Shown here piece by piece: positions 18,426 to 29,624 of a stretch of 64,000 nt of DNA. The DNA comes from Microlunatus kandeliicorticis. GTDB taxonomy: Bacteria; Actinomycetota; Actinomycetes; Propionibacteriales; Propionibacteriaceae. The notes beneath the pieces were generated by a model. The model was not told the origin of the DNA and did not search any database. It was given only the letters and a program-made list of their open reading frames with translations. How positions within the stretch are numbered: position 1 is the stretch's first letter; every line of letters begins with the position of its first letter. The position numbers and the translations under genes were made by a program. The DNA lies in NCBI RefSeq assembly GCF_014137855.1, contig NZ_JACGWT010000004.1, positions 248,001 through 312,000 on the forward strand, in the 5' to 3' direction.

Positions 18426-19322
18426 TCAGGTCCGCGGCCGGTACTCCGCAGCGGTCCGCTCGACCGCCGCCGCCAGCGTGGCGGGGTCCGGGCCGGTCGC
18501 CATCACCGCCCGGCTCGAGGACGGCAGCACGAACCGCGCGGCCGCGCCGAAGACCCGCGGCAGGTCGTCGGGTCCGGCGCCCTGCGCCCCGATGCCGGGG
18601 GCGAGCACCGGCCCGCTGACCACCCCGAGGTCGAGGGCGGCCACCGTCTCGGCAGGGATGGTCGCGCCGATCACCAACCCGAGCGAACCCCAGGCGCCGG
18701 GCTCCCCCGTCGCCAGCTCCTCGGCGTTGGCGCGGCTGACCGCAGCGACCACCGCCTGGGCCACCGCGACGCCGTCGAGGTGCCGGGCCCGTTGGACGTC
18801 GGCGGCCTCCGGGTTCGAGGTGGCGGCGAGCACGTAGACCCCACGACCCGAGCCGAGGGCGGTGGCGATCGCGCCGTCGAGCGAGCCGATCCCGAGGTAC
18901 GGGCTCAGGGTGACCGCGTCGGCGGCCAGCGCCGAGCCGTCGGTCAGGTAGGCGGCCGCGTAGGCGTCCATGGTCGAGCCGATGTCGCCGCGCTTGACGT
19001 CGAGCAGGCTGAGCAGCCCGGCCTGCCGGCAGTCGGCGAGCACCCGCTCGAGGGCGCGGATCCCGGCCGAGCCGAAGGCCTCGAAGAACGCCGACTGGGG
19101 CTTCACCAGGGCGACCCGGCCGGCCGCCGCCTCGACCATCGCGCGGCCGCAGCGCTCGAGCCCGTCGGCGTCCAGCGACAGCCCCCAGGCGGTCAGCAGC
19201 GAGGGGTGCGGGTCGATCCCCACGCAGAGCGGGCCGTGCTCGGCGACCGCCCGGGCCAGCCGGGCACCGTAGGCGATCGGTCGCTCGACCGCCTCCGCGG
19301 ACGGGTCCGGGGTCTGGGTCAC
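18426..19322 (-). CDS. pyrF: Orotidine 5'-phosphate decarboxylase (type 2)
   Basis: A 298-residue TIM-barrel enzyme making UMP in the last step of pyrimidine synthesis. The catalytic Lys/Asp array is in [31 protein letters not shown] identifies the longer type 2 (mycobacterial) form. The GTG start overlaps the pyrD stop (GTGA). It is the last gene of the carA-carB-pyrD-pyrF operon. Confidence 0.97.
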
Positions 19323-20380
19323 GGTCGCCTCCTGGCGTGCTGGTTGATCGCGCGGACCAGACCCGGTCCGGCGTAGATGAACCCGGTGTAGAGCTGGACC
19401 AGCGCGGCGCCGGCGTCGAACAGCGCGGCCGCGTCCGCCGCGGTGAGCACGCCGCCGACACCCATCACCGGCAGGTCGGTGTGCGCGGTGAGGTACCCGA
19501 CGACCTCCCGGGCCCGGCGGGTCAGCGGGGCGCCGGACAGCCCGCCGGCCTCGCGGGCCAGCGCGAGCTCGGCGTAGCGGACGTGCTCGCGGGCCAGCGT
19601 GGTGTTGGTGGCCACCAGCCCGGCCACCCCGGTGTCGGTGCAGACGGCCAGCACCTCGTCGAGCGCGGCGTCGGTCAGGTCCGGGGCGATCTTGACGAAG
19701 ATCGGCAGCCCGGCCGCCGCGGGGGCGGTGTGCAGCGCGGTGAGCAGGCCGGCGAGCGCCGCGCGGTCCTGCAGCCCGCGCAGTCCGGGGGTGTTCGGGC
19801 TAGAGACGTTGACCGCCAAATAGTCCGCGTAGGGCGCGACCAGGTCGAGCGCGGCCAGGTAGTCGGGCACCGCGTCCTCGACCGGGACGACCTTGGTCTT
19901 GCCGATCGAGATGCCCAGCGGGAGCCCGAGCGCGGCGTTGCCGCGGCGGACGCCGAGCCGGTCGAGCCGGCCGGCCAGCGCGGCCGCGCCGTCGTTGTTG
20001 AAGCCCATCCGGTTGACGATCCCCCGGCTCGCGGGCAGACGGAACAGCCGCGGCCGGTCGTTGCCGGGCTGGGCCTGCGCGGTGACCGTGCCGAGCTCGG
20101 CGAACCCGAACCCGAGCGGGCCCCAGGCCCGGGCCGCCCGCCCGTTCTTGTCCAGCCCCGCGGCCACCCCGACCCGGCCCGGGAAGGCGATCCCGGCCAC
20201 CGTGACCGGACCGGCGGGTGCTCCGCCGACCACCCGCAGCAGCTTGCGTCCGGGCGGGGTGCTCGCGACCAGCTCGAGCAGCCGCAGGGTCTCCTCGTGC
20301 ACCCGCTCGGCGTCGCCGCCGTGCCGGCGGAACAGCACCGGGCGGGCCAGCCGGGTGTACCCGGCCCCGACCAGGCTCAT
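19319..20380 (-). CDS. pyrD: Dihydroorotate dehydrogenase (quinone), class 2
   Basis: A 353-residue FMN enzyme oxidising dihydroorotate to orotate at the membrane with quinone as acceptor. The N-terminal amphipathic segment ([19 protein letters not shown]) is typical of class 2. FMN and substrate motifs are [21 protein letters not shown] and [15 protein letters not shown], the last containing the catalytic Ser. The C-terminal phosphate-binding region [12 protein letters not shown] is intact. It lies 30 bp after carB. Confidence 0.97.
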
Positions 20381-20410: not shown

Positions 20411-23814
<3,404 letters not shown>

Positions 23815-23815
<1 letters not shown>

Positions 23816-25035
23816 CAGGCCCTCCCTCCCTCGGTGCGGCCGCGCCGGGACCGCATCAGGTCCACGAACCGGTCGAACAGGTAGCTGGCGTCGTGCGGAC
23901 CGGCCGCGGCCTCGGGGTGGTACTGCACGGTGAAGGCGGCGAGCTCGCCATCGGGGTCGCGGAGCTCGAGGCCCTCGACCACGTCGTCGTTGAGGCCGAC
24001 GTGGCTGACCCGCGCCGAGCCGTACGGCGTCTCGACGTCGACGCCGATCGGGGCGTCGACGGCGAAACCGTGGTTGTGCGCGGTGATCTCGACCTTGCGG
24101 GTGCCGAGGTCCATCACCGGCTGGTTGATGCCGCGGTGACCGTAGGGCAGCTTGTAGGTGCCGAAGCCCAGGGCGCGGCCGAACAGCTGGTTGCCGAAGC
24201 AGATGCCGAAGAACGGCACCCGGGTCTCGAGCACCTGCTGGAGCAGGGCGACCGGCTCGGGCGAGGCGGCCGGGTCGCCGGGACCGTTGGAGAAGAAGAC
24301 GCCGTCGACGTCGAGCGCGGTGATCGTCTCGAGATCGGTGGTGGCGGGCAGCACGTGGACCTCGATGCCCCGCTCGGCCATCCGGTGCGGGGTCATCGAC
24401 TTGATGCCCAGGTCGATCGCGGCCACCCGGAGCGGGCGCTCCGCGCCGTCCACACCGCCCTGGGCCGGGATCCGGTAGCCCTGGTCCACGGTGACCTCGC
24501 GGATCAGGTTGGCCCCGGCCATCGGCGGGGTGTCGAGCACCCGGGCCAGCAGGGCCTCGGGGTCGAGCGTCTCGGTGGAGATGCCCACCCGCATCGCCCC
24601 GCGGTCGCGGAGGTGCCGGGTCAGGGCGCGGGTGTCGACGTCGGCGATGCCGATCACCCCCTGCTCGGCCAGCGCCGCCTCCAGCGGGCGGCGCGAGCGC
24701 CAGTTCGAGGGCACCCGGGCCAGGTCGCGGAGCACGTAGCCGGCCACCCAGATCTGCCGGGACTCGTCGTCCTCGTCGTTCCAGCCGGTGTTGCCGATGT
24801 GCGGGGCGGTGGCCACCACCACCTGCCGGCGGTAGCTCGGGTCGGTCAGGGTCTCCTGGTAGCCCGACATGGCGGTGGCGAAGACCGCCTCGCCGAAGGT
24901 CTCACCGGTGGCGCCGAAGGAGGTGCCGCGGAACGCGCGTCCGTCCTCCAGGACCAGCAACGCCGGTGGTCGATGCCGCCTCCGGTCGGGGATCGGCGAA
25001 CTTCCGGGCGCGCGAACAGGGACCGACGCAGACAT
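23815..25035 (-). CDS. carA: Carbamoyl-phosphate synthase small (glutaminase) subunit
   Basis: A 406-residue subunit that releases ammonia from glutamine for carB. The catalytic Cys is in [15 protein letters not shown] (GNQ rather than GHQ, as in other actinobacteria), and the catalytic His/Glu pair in QYHPEA. The N-terminal domain carries [14 protein letters not shown]. The ATG is preferred to an in-frame TTG just before it, because AAAGGA lies 6 nt upstream. It is the first gene of the operon and is preceded by a PyrR-type hairpin that includes this ribosome-binding site. Confidence 0.97.
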
Positions 25036-25042
25036 CAACCGT

Positions 25043-25074
25043 CCTTTCCTGCCTCACGGGACAGGTCTTAAAGG
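25043..25074 (-). promoter_or_regulatory. PyrR-binding-loop-like leader hairpin that pairs with the carA ribosome-binding site
   Basis: Read on the minus strand, CCUUU (25074-25070) pairs with AAAGG (25047-25043). An AAGA bulge follows on the 5' side. Then CCUGUC pairs with GGCAGG around the hexaloop CCGUGA. The 14-nt top, UGUCCCGUGAGGCA, fits the PyrR-binding consensus ARUCCNGNGAGGYU at 12 positions; the two misfits (first and last) are a compensating U-A for A-U. The lower stem contains the Shine-Dalgarno AAAGGA, so a bound regulator would block translation. A candidate -10 (TAGCCT) is at 25101-25096. Confidence 0.75.
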
Positions 25075-25171
25075 GTGGCGTGTGGATCGCCCGCCAGGCT
25101 AGCAGCCGGCCGCCGGGTCGCCCGCATCGTCCATCGGCGCGGTCCCAGACTGAGCGACTACCCTCTCGCGC

Positions 25172-25606
25172 GTGGCGGGCGTCGAGGAGGTCGAGCGCGA
25201 GCTGACCCGTTTCCTCCGACGCGCGCGTCGGGCCTCGCGCGGTCTGGCCGGGCAGGTCCACCCCGAGCTCGACGCCGCCGGGTACGCCGTGCTGGTGGTG
25301 GTCGAGGAGGAGTCCCGGATCGACCCGGTCCGCTCGGGCGAGGTGGCCACGGTCCTCGGGTTGCACAAGTCGCAGGTCAGCCGGTCGCTCGCCGGGCTCG
25401 AGGCGCTCGGGCTGATCCGGCAGCACCCGGACCCCGACGACGGCCGCGCGCGGCTGGTCGACCTCACGCCCGCCGGCCGCGACGCGCTGACCCGGGCCCG
25501 GACCGGACGCCGCGCCGAGCTGACCTCCAAGCTCGACGGCTGGACCCAGCAGGACCTGGTGGCGTTGGCCCGGCTGCTGGGTCGCCTCAACGACGACCTG
25601 GACTGA
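25172..25606 (+). CDS. MarR family transcriptional regulator (first)
   Basis: A 144-residue winged-helix regulator. The recognition region reads SGEVATVLGLHKSQVSRSLAGLEALGLI, and the wing is RQHPDPDDGRARLVDLTPAG. Flanking helices form the usual dimer interface. It starts at a GTG with a weak ribosome-binding site, and is divergent from carA with a 136-bp gap. It ends 99 bp before the second marR, so it may form its own unit. No inducer or target can be assigned. Confidence 0.9.
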   Translation: MAGVEEVERELTRFLRRARRASRGLAGQVHPELDAAGYAVLVVVEEESRIDPVRSGEVATVLGLHKSQVSRSLAGLEALGLIRQHPDPDDGRARLVDLTPAGRDALTRARTGRRAELTSKLDGWTQQDLVALARLLGRLNDDLD

Positions 25607-25646
25607 CGTCACTCTTTCCCGCGCGAGGCACCCACTTATTCTGATA

Positions 25647-25689
25647 GTTGCGGAATACAACGGTTCTGGTTATCGTTGTGTTCAGCAAC
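25647..25689 (+). promoter_or_regulatory. Promoter with paired MarR-type operators before the second marR
   Basis: Two GTTG-N7-CAAC boxes lie at 25647-25661 and 25675-25689, 28 bp apart. Between them a perfect ACAACG-N11-CGTTGT inverted repeat spans 25657-25679. A -35 (TTGCGG, 25648-25653) and a -10 (TATCGT, 25671-25676) are 17 bp apart and overlap both boxes. The segment is clearly AT-richer than its surroundings. It should serve the marR and the antiporter gene, with autorepression as the simplest model. Confidence 0.65.
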
Positions 25690-25705
25690 CAAAGGAGTGA
25701 CCGAC

Positions 25706-26251
25706 ATGCTGACCGAACCCCGCGCCGCCGAGCTGCTGGGCGCGCTCTCCTCGCTGATCCGCACCGGCCGGGTCGTCTCGCAGCGATCGCACGGCACCAG
25801 CGCCAGCGGGACGCAGTTCGGCGTCCTCAAGCTGGTCTCCGAGCAGGCCATCCGGCTCGGCGACATCGCCACCGCCCTGATGGTGGCCCCGTCGGTCGCC
25901 TCCCGGGCGGTCTCCGCGCTCGAGACGGAGGGTCTGGTCCAGCGGCACCCCGACCCGGCCGACGCCCGGGCCTGCCTGATCGGGCTGACCGACCTCGGCC
26001 GCCAGCGGCTGCGCGAGCGGCACAGCTTCTCGCTGACCCAGCTGCGTGAGGTGCTCGCGGACTGGGACGACGACGAGGCAGCTCTGGCGGTGGCGCTCTT
26101 CCGCCGGCTCGAGGGCGGCGTCGGCGAGTTCGTCAGCCGCCTGGCCGGTCAGCCCGTGGTCGGCCGGCCCGACGACCCCGGCGGCACCGACGCCGCGCTC
26201 ACCCCGACCTCGACCGCCGGACTTCCCCAGATGGAGCACCAACCCGCATGA
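25706..26251 (+). CDS. MarR family transcriptional regulator (second), coupled to antiporter
   Basis: A 181-residue winged-helix protein. The helix-turn-helix is IRLGDIATALMVAPSVASRAVSALETEGLV, followed by the wing QRHPDPADARACLIGLTDLG. The C-terminal 30 residues are Pro/Thr-rich and look disordered. The ATG is fixed by AAAGGAG 8 nt upstream; ten codons further upstream are open but lie in the operator. Its TGA overlaps the ATG of the antiporter gene (ATGA), a typical local repressor arrangement. Confidence 0.92.
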   Translation: MLTEPRAAELLGALSSLIRTGRVVSQRSHGTSASGTQFGVLKLVSEQAIRLGDIATALMVAPSVASRAVSALETEGLVQRHPDPADARACLIGLTDLGRQRLRERHSFSLTQLREVLADWDDDEAALAVALFRRLEGGVGEFVSRLAGQPVVGRPDDPGGTDAALTPTSTAGLPQMEHQPA

Positions 26252-28392
26252 CCACCGCCACCGTGACCCGCACCGAGTCCGCCGCCGCGCCCGCGCCGCA
26301 GCGGCAGCTCAGCCACAAGGAGATCCTCGAGGTGATGACCGGCCTGCTGGCCGGCCTGTTCACCGCGCTGCTCTCCTCCACCATCGTGTCCACCGCGCTG
26401 CCGACGATCATGGCCGACCTGCACGGCACCCAGCGCCAGTACACCTGGGTGATCACCGCCTCGCTGCTGGCCATGACCATCTCCACCCCGATCTGGGGCA
26501 AGCTCTCCGACCTGTTCAACAAGAAGCTGCTGATCCAGATCTCGATCGTGATGTTCGTGGCCGGGTCGGTCGGCGCCGGGCTCTCGCAGTCGGTCCCGCC
26601 GATGATGGCCTTCCGCGCCCTGCAGGGGCTGGCGATGGGCGGCCTGACCGCGCTGACGCAGTCGATCATCGGCTCGATCATCCCGCCGCGTGAGCGCGGT
26701 CGTTACAGCGGCTACATGGGCGCCGTGATGGCGGTCAGCACGGTCTCCGGCCCGCTGCTCGGTGGCGTGATCACCCAGCACATCGACTGGCGCTGGTGTT
26801 TCTTCGTCTGCGTCCCGCTGGCGGTGATCTCGCTGATCGTGCTGCAGAAGACGCTGCGGCTGCCGACCGTCCGCCGCAAGGTGCACTTCGACTACCTCGG
26901 GGCGATCCTGATCGCGATCGCCGCCGCGCTACCGATGCTCTGGGTGACCTTCGCCGGCCAGGACTACGACTGGATCTCCTGGCAGTCCGGGTTGTTCCTG
27001 CTCGGCTTCCTGGCCGCCGCCGGGCTCGCCGTCCTGGTCGAGCTCAAGGCCCGCCACCCGATGGTCCCGATCCGGGTGATGAGCAACAGCACCACCGCGC
27101 TGATGATCGTGGCCAGCCTCGGTGTCGGCGTCACCATGTTCGGCAGCGGCACCTTCCTCACCCAGTACTTCCAGCTGGCCGGCGGCAACTCGCCGACCCG
27201 GGCGGGTCTGATGACGATCCCGCTGATCATCGCGCAGATGCTGTCCTCCACCATCGGCGGGCAGATCGTCAGCCGGACCGGTCGGTGGAAGCCGATCATG
27301 GTCTTCGGCTCCGTGCTGCTGCTCGCCGGCCTGGGCGGGATGGCCACCATCGACCACGGCACGCCGTACTGGCAGGTCGCGATCTTCATGGCGGTGATGG
27401 GCGTCGGCGTCGGCACCCTGGTGCAGAACATCGTGCTCGCGGTGCAGAACACCGTCGACGTCAAGGACATCGGCTCGAGCTCGGCGATCATCAGCTTCTT
27501 CCGGTCGCTGGGCGGGGCGGTCGGCGTGACCGTGCTCGGCGCGGTGCTGGCCGACCGGGTCGAGTCCAAGATCACCGGCGCGCTCGGACCGCAGGCCAGC
27601 GCCGGCGCCGGGGCCGGCACCCTGGACATCAAGGACCTGCCGGCCGCCGTCCAGACGGTGATCCACACCGCCTACGGCGACAGCTTCGGGCTGCTGTTCG
27701 GGATTGCCGGCGCGATCGCGATCCTCACCCTGGTCACCGTGATCGCGGTCCGGGAGGTCCCGCTGCGGACCACCATCGAGCTCAAGCCGTCGGCCGGAAC
27801 CGACGCGCAGCAGCCGGTCTCCGGAGCCACCGAGGCCGCCGGGGCGGTCCCCACGGCGACCCTCCAGCCGAGCCGGGTCGAGACCGCGGACGGGCCCTCC
27901 GCCGAGCTCGAATCCGTCGACGGCTTCGACCGCGACGCGCTCGACGACCCGGCCGAACGACAGGCCGTCGCGGCGATGGACGTGCTGCGGGCGGCGCAGG
28001 AACAGGCCCGTCAGCAGCTGGTCGCGGCCCGCGACAGCCACGCCGACGTGGCCGAGCGGATCGAGCAGGTCGGTCGCGACGCCGACGCGGCTCTGGCCCG
28101 GTTCCACGCCGAGCTCGACCAGATCCAGGCCCGGCTGCGCGCCGAGACGCCCGAGGGCGCCCCGGTGATCCAGGACGGCAGCGGCGGCACCGACCTGCGA
28201 CGCTACGAGTACGGCCTGCTGCTCAGCAGCCAGCAGACGGCCGACCGGCTCAACCGGATCGCCCGGCTCGAGGCGGAGCGGATCCTGGCCGACGCCGAGC
28301 AGCAGCGGGCCGACCTCGAACACCGGATCGAGCTGCTCCGGCGTACCGAGGCCGAGCTGAGCGAGAAGGTCAAGGCCCGGCTCGAGGCCTGA
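26248..28392 (+). CDS. DHA2-type MFS drug/proton antiporter with C-terminal coiled-coil extension
   Basis: A 714-residue inner-membrane exporter. Residues 25-510 hold about 14 helices of the EmrB/QacA group. Motif A is GKLSDLFNKK, and motif C lies in STVSGPLLGGVI. The family exports hydrophobic compounds using proton influx. From about residue 515 there is a 200-residue cytoplasmic tail: a Pro/Thr linker, then heptad-like Ala/Glu/Arg-rich helices at about 568-635 and 675-712 (AAQEQARQQLVAARDSHADV and similar). Such a tail is not usual for DHA2 transporters. There is no sign of a frameshift; codon use is uniform to the stop. Confidence 0.93.
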   Translation: MTTATVTRTESAAAPAPQRQLSHKEILEVMTGLLAGLFTALLSSTIVSTALPTIMADLHGTQRQYTWVITASLLAMTISTPIWGKLSDLFNKKLLIQISIVMFVAGSVGAGLSQSVPPMMAFRALQGLAMGGLTALTQSIIGSIIPPRERGRYSGYMGAVMAVSTVSGPLLGGVITQHIDWRWCFFVCVPLAVISLIVLQKTLRLPTVRRKVHFDYLGAILIAIAAALPMLWVTFAGQDYDWISWQSGLFLLGFLAAAGLAVLVELKARHPMVPIRVMSNSTTALMIVASLGVGVTMFGSGTFLTQYFQLAGGNSPTRAGLMTIPLIIAQMLSSTIGGQIVSRTGRWKPIMVFGSVLLLAGLGGMATIDHGTPYWQVAIFMAVMGVGVGTLVQNIVLAVQNTVDVKDIGSSSAIISFFRSLGGAVGVTVLGAVLADRVESKITGALGPQASAGAGAGTLDIKDLPAAVQTVIHTAYGDSFGLLFGIAGAIAILTLVTVIAVREVPLRTTIELKPSAGTDAQQPVSGATEAAGAVPTATLQPSRVETADGPSAELESVDGFDRDALDDPAERQAVAAMDVLRAAQEQARQQLVAARDSHADVAERIEQVGRDADAALARFHAELDQIQARLRAETPEGAPVIQDGSGGTDLRRYEYGLLLSSQQTADRLNRIARLEAERILADAEQQRADLEHRIELLRRTEAELSEKVKARLEA

Positions 28393-28500: not shown

Positions 28501-28911
28501 CTAGGCGGTCGAGCTCTCCCGGACCACCGCGCCGAGCACGCCGTTGACGAAGGAGGGCGAGTCGTCGGTGGACAGCTCCCCCACCAGCGAGACGGCTTCG
28601 GAGACCGCCACGCCGGGAGCGACGTCGAGGAAGTCGACCTCGCAGACCGCGATCCGCAGGGCAGCACGGTCCACCCGCGGCAGCCGCGCCAGCGTCCAGC
28701 CGCGGGCCAGCGCCGCGGAGATCCGGGCGTCGATCGCGTTCCGGTTCGCCCCGACCGCCTCGACCAGCCGGACGGTGTAGTCCCGCACCGGCGGGTCGGC
28801 GTCGGCGGTCCGGTCCGACAGCGTGGTGAGCGGGTCGACGCCGCGGAGCTCGGACTCGAACAGGATGTCCAGGGCCCGCTTGCGTGCCTTGCCCTGGGTC
28901 GAGCGGTGCAC
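28501..28911 (-). CDS. nusB: Transcription antitermination factor NusB
   Basis: A 136-residue all-helical RNA-binding protein that, with S10, supports antitermination at rRNA operons. The family pattern is ARKRALDILFESELRG at the start, DARISAALARGWTLARLPRVDRAALRIAVCE (read in two parts) in the middle, and FVNGVLGAVVRE at the end. The GTG start puts the core seven residues in, like other actinobacterial NusB. A TTG at 28968, overlapping the efp stop (TTGA), is an alternative that would add 19 residues. Confidence 0.93.
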   Translation of the reverse strand: MHRSTQGKARKRALDILFESELRGVDPLTTLSDRTADADPPVRDYTVRLVEAVGANRNAIDARISAALARGWTLARLPRVDRAALRIAVCEVDFLDVAPGVAVSEAVSLVGELSTDDSPSFVNGVLGAVVRESSTA

Positions 28912-28964
28912 GGGCTCGGGCTGGATGGTCCGCTCGAAGGTGCCGCGCCCGGGATCGGGGGCGC

Positions 28965-29528
28965 TCAACTGCCGATCCGGCCGAGGTACTCGCCGGTGCG
29001 GGTGTCGACCTTGACCTTCTCGCCGGTGGTCAGGAACAGCGGGACCTGGATCTGCAGCCCGGTCTCCACGGTGGCCGGCTTGGTGCCGCCGGTGCTGCGG
29101 TCGCCCTGCAGCCCCGGCTCGGTGTAGGTGATGACCAGCTCGACCGAGGCCGGCAGGTCGATGTAGAGCGGGTTGTCCTCGTGGATGGCCACGGTGGCGG
29201 TCTGCTCCTCGAGCAGGTAGTTCTTCGCGTCGCCTACCACCGCGTCGGGGATGGTCATCTGCTCGTAGTTGCCGGTGTCCATGAACACGAAGCCCGAGCC
29301 GTCGTGGTACAGGTACTGCATCTCGCGCCGGTCGACGCTGGCGGTGTCGACCTTGGTGTCGGAGTTGAAGGTCTTGTCCACGACCTTGCCGCTGAGCACG
29401 TGCTTGAGCTTGGTGCGCACCACCGTGTTGCCCTTGCCCGGCTTGTGGTGCTGGAACCACACCACCGACCAGAGCTGGCCGTCCAGGTCGAGCACCATGC
29501 CGTTCTTCAGGTCGTTCGTCGAGACCAC
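28965..29528 (-). CDS. efp: Elongation factor P
   Basis: A 187-residue tRNA-shaped protein that relieves ribosome stalling at polyproline. The N-terminal loop [16 protein letters not shown] carries the tip lysine. The middle OB domain has [19 protein letters not shown], and the C-terminal signature is [16 protein letters not shown]. The GTG before VSTNDLKNG is chosen, since GAGGT lies 8-9 nt upstream and the length is then standard. It is followed by nusB, the common order. Confidence 0.97.
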
Positions 29529-29624
29529 GCCTACTACCTCACCCAATCATCGGTCGGAAGATGCCCGGGACGGCACGCGGGACCGCGGCCACGTCCGGGC
29601 GACCCCCGAGTCTAGCCTTGCCGG

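Follow-up and report, generated by a model that had tools for sequence, protein, structure and literature searches.

A PyrR-class RNA hairpin encloses the carA Shine-Dalgarno sequence in Microlunatus kandeliicorticis and is a likely site of translational control

Analysis of a 64,000-nt stretch of the Microlunatus kandeliicorticis genome (the window; contig NZ_JACGWT010000004.1, positions 248,001 to 312,000) confirmed a hairpin in the leader of carA, whose lower stem takes in the carA Shine-Dalgarno (SD) sequence. We consider it likely, with a probability of about 0.85, that this hairpin is the switch by which PyrR in complex with UMP blocks carA translation; PyrR binding, the UMP ligand, the translational block and the effect on downstream genes are all parts that we infer. 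On the minus strand, positions 25074-25043 read CCUUU-AAGA-CCUGUC-CCGUGA-GGCAGG-AAAGG, followed by an A, six bases and the carA ATG (Table 1). The first-pass annotation of this DNA had described a 12 of 14 match to the PyrR-binding consensus ARUCCNGNGAGGYU with the two differences forming a swapped U-A pair (25063 with 25050), a CNGNGA hexaloop, a purine bulge on the 5′ side, and an SD six bases before the ATG in a hairpin directly preceding carA, and all of these are found in the sequence as described. It had also assigned the whole of AAAGGA to the lower stem; AAAGG is indeed in the stem, while the last A is unpaired and lies outside it, so that five of the six SD bases are paired. The overall reading, a PyrR-class hairpin with a hidden SD directly in front of carA, is supported by the present results, with PyrR binding and repression as its predicted function.

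Table 1 Features of the carA leader and operon (positions in the window)
Feature	Position	Strand	Basis or remark
carA, carbamoyl-phosphate synthase small subunit	23815..25035	-	TIGR01368, 428 bits, cut-off 307
carB-like ORF (large subunit)	20411..23815	-	named by reading the translation only
pyrD, quinone-dependent dihydroorotate dehydrogenase	19319..20380	-	NF003652, 409 bits, cut-off 267
pyrF, orotidine-5′-phosphate decarboxylase	18426..19322	-	TIGR02127, 251 bits, cut-off 111
Putative -10 box TAGCCT, extended by TGC (25104-25102)	25096..25101	-	TANNNT counts
5′ arm of lower stem, CCUUU	25070..25074	-	pairs with SD side; 30/30 family carA leaders
Purine bulge AAGA, 5′ side	25066..25069	-	read from sequence
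5′ arm of upper stem, CCUGUC	25060..25065	-	4/6 pairs with two-sided changes in alignment A3
Hexaloop CCGUGA (CNGNGA)	25054..25059	-	read from sequence
3′ arm of upper stem, GGCAGG	25048..25053	-	pairs with 25065-25060
3′ arm of lower stem, AAAGG, part of SD	25043..25047	-	pairs with CCUUU, 25074-25070
carA Shine-Dalgarno AAAGGA	25042..25047	-	six bases before ATG 25035-25033

The assignment of the hairpin rests on homology and covariation. The bare 14-nt consensus was tried as evidence and rejected: with up to two mismatches it occurs 12 times in the window, where shuffled sequences average 17.5, and since it is no commoner than in shuffles, the 12 of 14 match was given no weight as an argument. 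The 101-nt leader shows no excess stability (z of 0.12 for folding energy), and an Rfam search of the whole window returned no family at its gathering score. A covariance search, as proposed in the first-pass annotation, bore out membership in the PyrR loop class. In the 401-nt stretch at the site the PyrR family RF00515 is the best Rfam match (29.7 bits, E = 0.029), below its gathering score of 54; because only model positions 5-36 of 115 are matched, the hairpin is filed with the PyrR loop class by homology and not as the full Rfam attenuator. A covariance model built from 14 pyrR leaders, all from other families (R2), scores 43.3 bits at the carA site (E = 3.4e-10, the E-values of our models being rough), and its next best match in the 64 kb reaches 15.9 bits. 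A second model (R1, with equally rough E-values) contains the window sequence, which makes its 70.4 bits at the site circular. The site combines the CNGNGA hexaloop, the UCC/GAGG closing region and the purine-rich 5′ bulge of a PyrR binding loop with homology to loops upstream of pyrR elsewhere and a pyrR gene in the same genome.

Pairing was counted in an alignment of 33 distinct loops chosen among the matches (A3), for the upper stem alone, since longer bulges put the lower stem out of alignment in the rows that have them. In A3, 97.5% of the upper-stem cells pair, four of the six pairs are changed on both sides, and the covariation score was reached by 0 of 500 shuffles, a control that related sequences lacking structure can also beat. 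Sliding the partner by one to three columns lowered pairing to 35-54%. A previous count, made with 20 distinct loops, gave the same picture of covariation as A3; further pair types were not above shuffles in either set (290 of 500 as high for A3, 442 of 500 for the earlier count). Conservation of the loop and of the paired bases in close relatives, on which the first-pass annotation had staked its reading, is seen together with compensatory changes; within the genus, G001 and G015 are exceptions whose hairpin has decayed. Among the 30 carA leaders of the family, which were found through the loop itself so that 30 is no rate of conservation, the SD lies within the stem in all 30 and the loop fits CNGNGA in 29, the exception being L180 with CGTCGA. 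The flanks of the hairpin differ among these leaders while the hairpin is kept. The bulge reads AAGU, AAGC or AAAC in relatives and AACGA or AACC in other families, and is thus not all purine in those families; row L183 was misparsed in this reading.

The hairpin heads a row of genes on one strand in the order carA, carB-like ORF, pyrD and pyrF, with an in-frame TTG immediately 5′ of the carA ATG. Because a TANNNT box is present in all 30 family carA leaders, the transcript probably starts just 5′ of the hairpin. In the window this box is TAGCCT, which begins 27 nt upstream of the hairpin, and the carA transcription start is expected near 25090-25088. The promoter evidence consists of counts on the 30 leaders set against letter shuffles: TANNNT lies 18-31 nt 5′ of CCTTT in 30/30 (mean 1.97 in shuffles), and TGNTANNNT occurs in 26/30 (0.13 in shuffles). 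Divergent from carA, positions 25172-28392 of the plus strand encode two MarR-like regulators and an efflux-type MFS protein of 714 aa (TIGR00711, 226 bits, just below the cut-off of 230) whose C-terminus is extended by a long stretch; this block stands between carA and ORFs reading as nusB and efp (28501-29546). A GC-rich inverted repeat at 25210-25243 (plus strand) gives a weak match to CRISPR-DR20 (17.3 bits against 42), which is most likely due to chance.

A pyrR gene, on whose presence the first-pass annotation had made its reading depend, is encoded at G000:C6:377596-378123 and scores above two curated cut-offs (219.6 bits against 138, and 255.4 against 230 for NF003547), with pyrB downstream. 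It lies on contig C6 and the window on contig C4; in G019, a relative assembled as one contig, 1.1 Mb separates carA from pyrR. No loop was found near pyrR in the window's own genome, and an unfiltered scan of the 700-1500 nt upstream of pyrR found none at 33 loci (best E 0.31), comprising all 30 genomes with the loop at carA plus G001, G004 and G015.

To place this arrangement, 43 loop loci were tested by tblastn, 34 from the window's family and nine from other families. The loop is followed by carA at 30 of the family loci and by pyrR at the other four (groups g4 and g14); at the loci from other families it is followed by pyrR in seven cases and by carA in two. It was also found 5′ of pyrR in seven more g14 genomes, in one more g4 genome and in G097 (g4). 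A class sample of 148 genomes contains 147 with pyrR and 147 with a loop match, eight of the 14 R2 leaders being from genomes of this sample, which match by construction; the remaining genome, G248, has neither. In 146 of the 147 pyrR genomes the loop stands just 5′ of pyrR: the gap to the pyrR match is 4-192 nt in 143 of them and likewise short in G151, G249 and G258. The sole exception is the window's genome, and the sample holds no other genome of its family. Among the matches listed, at least six class genomes carry a second loop, before carA in 6/6, and further weak second sites may exist; these six all fall within g18 (10 genomes in the sample). We take g14 to be Cutibacterium-like and g18 to be Nocardioides-like. 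In the class the loop usually lies 5′ of pyrR. A further copy at carA occurs in g18, and the part of the family to which the window belongs showed a carA copy alone. The position of the loop before pyrR in 146 of 147 genomes, together with its absence from the pyrR-less G248, ties it to PyrR.

Of 118 genomes in the family sample, 81 encode pyrR, and the 32 loops detected by the filtered scan are all among these (32/81 against 0/37 pyrR-less genomes; Fisher 7.6e-7, uncorrected for relatedness). The count of 32/118 is a lower bound and the negatives are soft, since the filters dropped true sites; an unfiltered scan added eight family genomes with the loop before pyrR. A pyrR gene does not in turn imply a loop: the same scan found none in 25 of 33 pyrR leaders, so that at least 25 family genomes have pyrR without a loop there. 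Of the 41 loop-less pyrR genomes, 26 had their pyrR leaders scanned unfiltered (these 25 and G001), and the carA leaders were covered by the filtered scan, a few of them read or scanned directly; for the 37 pyrR-less genomes, the carA leaders of three (G025, G026 and G031) were scanned unfiltered. One genome, G125, has a weak match (24.5 bits) at a distance from pyrR. In the window's genus, two sister genomes, both fragmented assemblies, keep pyrR with a decayed carA hairpin (L107 in G015 and L218 in G001).

In three genomes from another genus of the family, G022, G069 and G085 (L183, L184 and L217), the loop is followed by a strong intrinsic terminator right before pyrR (-20 to -24 kcal/mol with 5-6 U), resembling Bacillus-type attenuation; the fourth genome of that genus, G097 (L297), has no such U-run. 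The g14 leaders (L181, L182 and L205-L211) are long, and the loop lies some 80 nt or more upstream of pyrR; its stem contains no SD, and a clear U-run is lacking. In some of them the minimum free energy fold has the pyrR SD paired to a segment 5′ of it, perhaps as a two-hairpin translation switch. Four g9 genomes without the PyrR loop carry a different conserved stretch before pyrR (L185-L188), CTCGAAGCCTGGTGGCCTCG followed by GACCGAGGAGCGCTGCGTG.

In the mechanism that we propose for carA, plentiful UMP would give rise to PyrR-UMP, supplied from the distant pyrR-pyrB locus, which would bind the CNGNGA loop, the upper stem and the bulge, lock the weak lower stem and keep ribosomes off carA; at low UMP, opening of the lower stem would allow carA to be translated. 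Blocking the SD at carA would be expected to affect the genes after it as well. In this part of the family, with the loop placed at carA instead of ahead of the pyrR operon, PyrR would act only in trans and would no longer control its own genes by way of the loop. The choice of UMP as ligand follows other PyrR systems (PMC10986495, PMC7430163). The predicted folding energies fit this scheme: the hairpin has -10.2 kcal/mol and the upper stem alone -8.2, which leaves 2.0 for the SD-bearing lower stem, in keeping with a stem open to clamping by a protein. Freeing the SD would cost 4.95 kcal/mol in the window leader and 2.1-7.5 (median 3.8) across 29 of the 30 family leaders, L130 being left out for a pattern mismatch. 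PyrR might instead bind the hairpin and act mainly on transcription, by attenuation, or on mRNA stability, and the terminators and U-runs behind the loop in G022, G069 and G085 suggest that attenuation may be how a PyrR of this family works. At carA, however, the six bases between SD and ATG leave no room for a terminator, which favours a block of ribosome entry by PyrR-UMP, and the SD is in the stem in all 30 family carA leaders; we regard an effect mainly on transcription or stability as unlikely.

The PyrR proteins themselves differ with the loop. We compared 49 loop genomes (30 of the carA type, four family genomes of the pyrR type out of 13 with the loop at pyrR, and 15 of 24 from other families) with 21 loop-less ones, namely the two with a decayed carA hairpin (G001 and G015) and 19 of the 25 loop-less pyrR loci (G098, G089, G149, G096, G067 and G125 were left out). 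Two alignment columns discriminate best: N169 is Asn in 49/49 loop genomes against 0/21 loop-less ones, and R162 is Arg in 49/49 against 3/21. K168 is Lys in 49/49 against 13/21, and the R, K and N of these columns were present at all 25 class loci looked at. Going by where the match with 1a3c begins and ends, N169, R162 and K168 correspond approximately to N153, R146 and K152 of the B. subtilis protein. R146 and K152 are reportedly among the residues whose part in RNA binding Savacool and Switzer tested in 2002. Both decayed-hairpin genomes have Tyr at the N169 column. On a tree built without the stretch containing the three columns, the loop changes four times on the best tree, twice on well-supported branches, and N169 goes along in both supported pairs; because the losses are too few, the association cannot reach significance by independent pairs or a sign test. 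Two other positions speak against a simple account: the equivalent of B. subtilis R27 is Ala in the window's PyrR and Arg in 0/29 carA-group relatives, with Arg in the pyrR-type groups, and that of T18 is Thr in only 16/29 carA-group relatives. A review places RNA binding by PyrR at a basic concave face (PMC7430163). The N169/R162 pattern, with its few independent losses, ties the hairpin to PyrR.

These comparisons also bear on readings that leave PyrR out. A plain start-region hairpin or thermometer could set carA translation at a fixed or temperature-set level, and the hairpin does fold unaided and hide the SD. We nevertheless judge this very improbable: its loop, though dispensable for pairing, matches the PyrR site and is preserved in 29 of the 30 family carA leaders, a homologous loop normally precedes pyrR across the class, and the PyrR columns differ where the hairpin is missing. 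Least probable of all, in our estimate, is a functionless relic of a former operon head left after the operon split. Decay of the kind seen in G001 and G015 is possible, yet the SD-bearing stem in 30/30 and CNGNGA in 29/30 of the sampled carA leaders, the compensatory changes beside differing flanks, and the retention of N169 and R162 in the PyrR of the same genomes all speak against it. Repression of carA translation by PyrR-UMP is the reading that we retain.

The closest known case is the Mycobacterium smegmatis pyr operon, for which Fields and Switzer reportedly described PyrR-dependent translational repression in 2007. That system reportedly shares with the carA leader a PyrR loop over the first ribosome-binding site and a leader free of terminators, and differs in that its loop heads a pyrR-first operon, where here carA has the loop and pyrR lies far off; the arrangement for autoregulation, a loop at the head of the pyrR operon, was seen neither in the window's own genome nor at the 33 pyrR loci scanned. 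The B. subtilis attenuator (RF00515) resembles the carA leader in the loop, the top of the upper stem and the purine bulge, and PMC7430163 gives its loop consensus as ARUCCAGAGAGGYU with the role of the loop parts. It differs in its antiterminator and terminator, neither of which follows the loop at carA. In Lactococcus, PMC10986495 describes several pyr operons, one with carB alone, proposed to be under one PyrR; the pyr genes are likewise split over several operons in the window's genome, but in Lactococcus control is by transcription attenuation and pyrR heads pyrRPBcarA. Among the open-licence papers listed, none dealt with PyrR at carA in actinobacteria. Rfam PyrR sites are reported by a survey whose scope extends to Corynebacteriaceae and Mycobacteriaceae (PMC3766115), and earlier carA predictions may exist. 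The RNA loop and SD hiding were thus already known; as far as the literature was searched, the placement at carA alone, away from pyrR, is new, as is the joint difference of PyrR columns and loop.

Taking loop and protein together, we lean, somewhat better than evenly, towards a joint reading in which PyrR in this part of the family would have abandoned autoregulation through the loop, its control of the pathway being exerted in trans alone, on the first enzyme, at carA. Within the family the loop would serve as a portable module, used for SD hiding and for attenuation alike, and where it is lost PyrR would lose the equivalents of Asn153 and Arg146 and probably be a plain uracil phosphoribosyltransferase. 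If this is true, Asn153 is a new candidate RNA-contact residue. The comparison offers a natural experiment on target change by an RNA-binding regulator, with the loop before pyrR as is usual in the class, the loop at carA in part of one family, or the loop and the PyrR columns lost together. It would make testable both Asn153 and Arg146 as RNA contacts and the control of carbamoyl phosphate supply in place of autoregulation.
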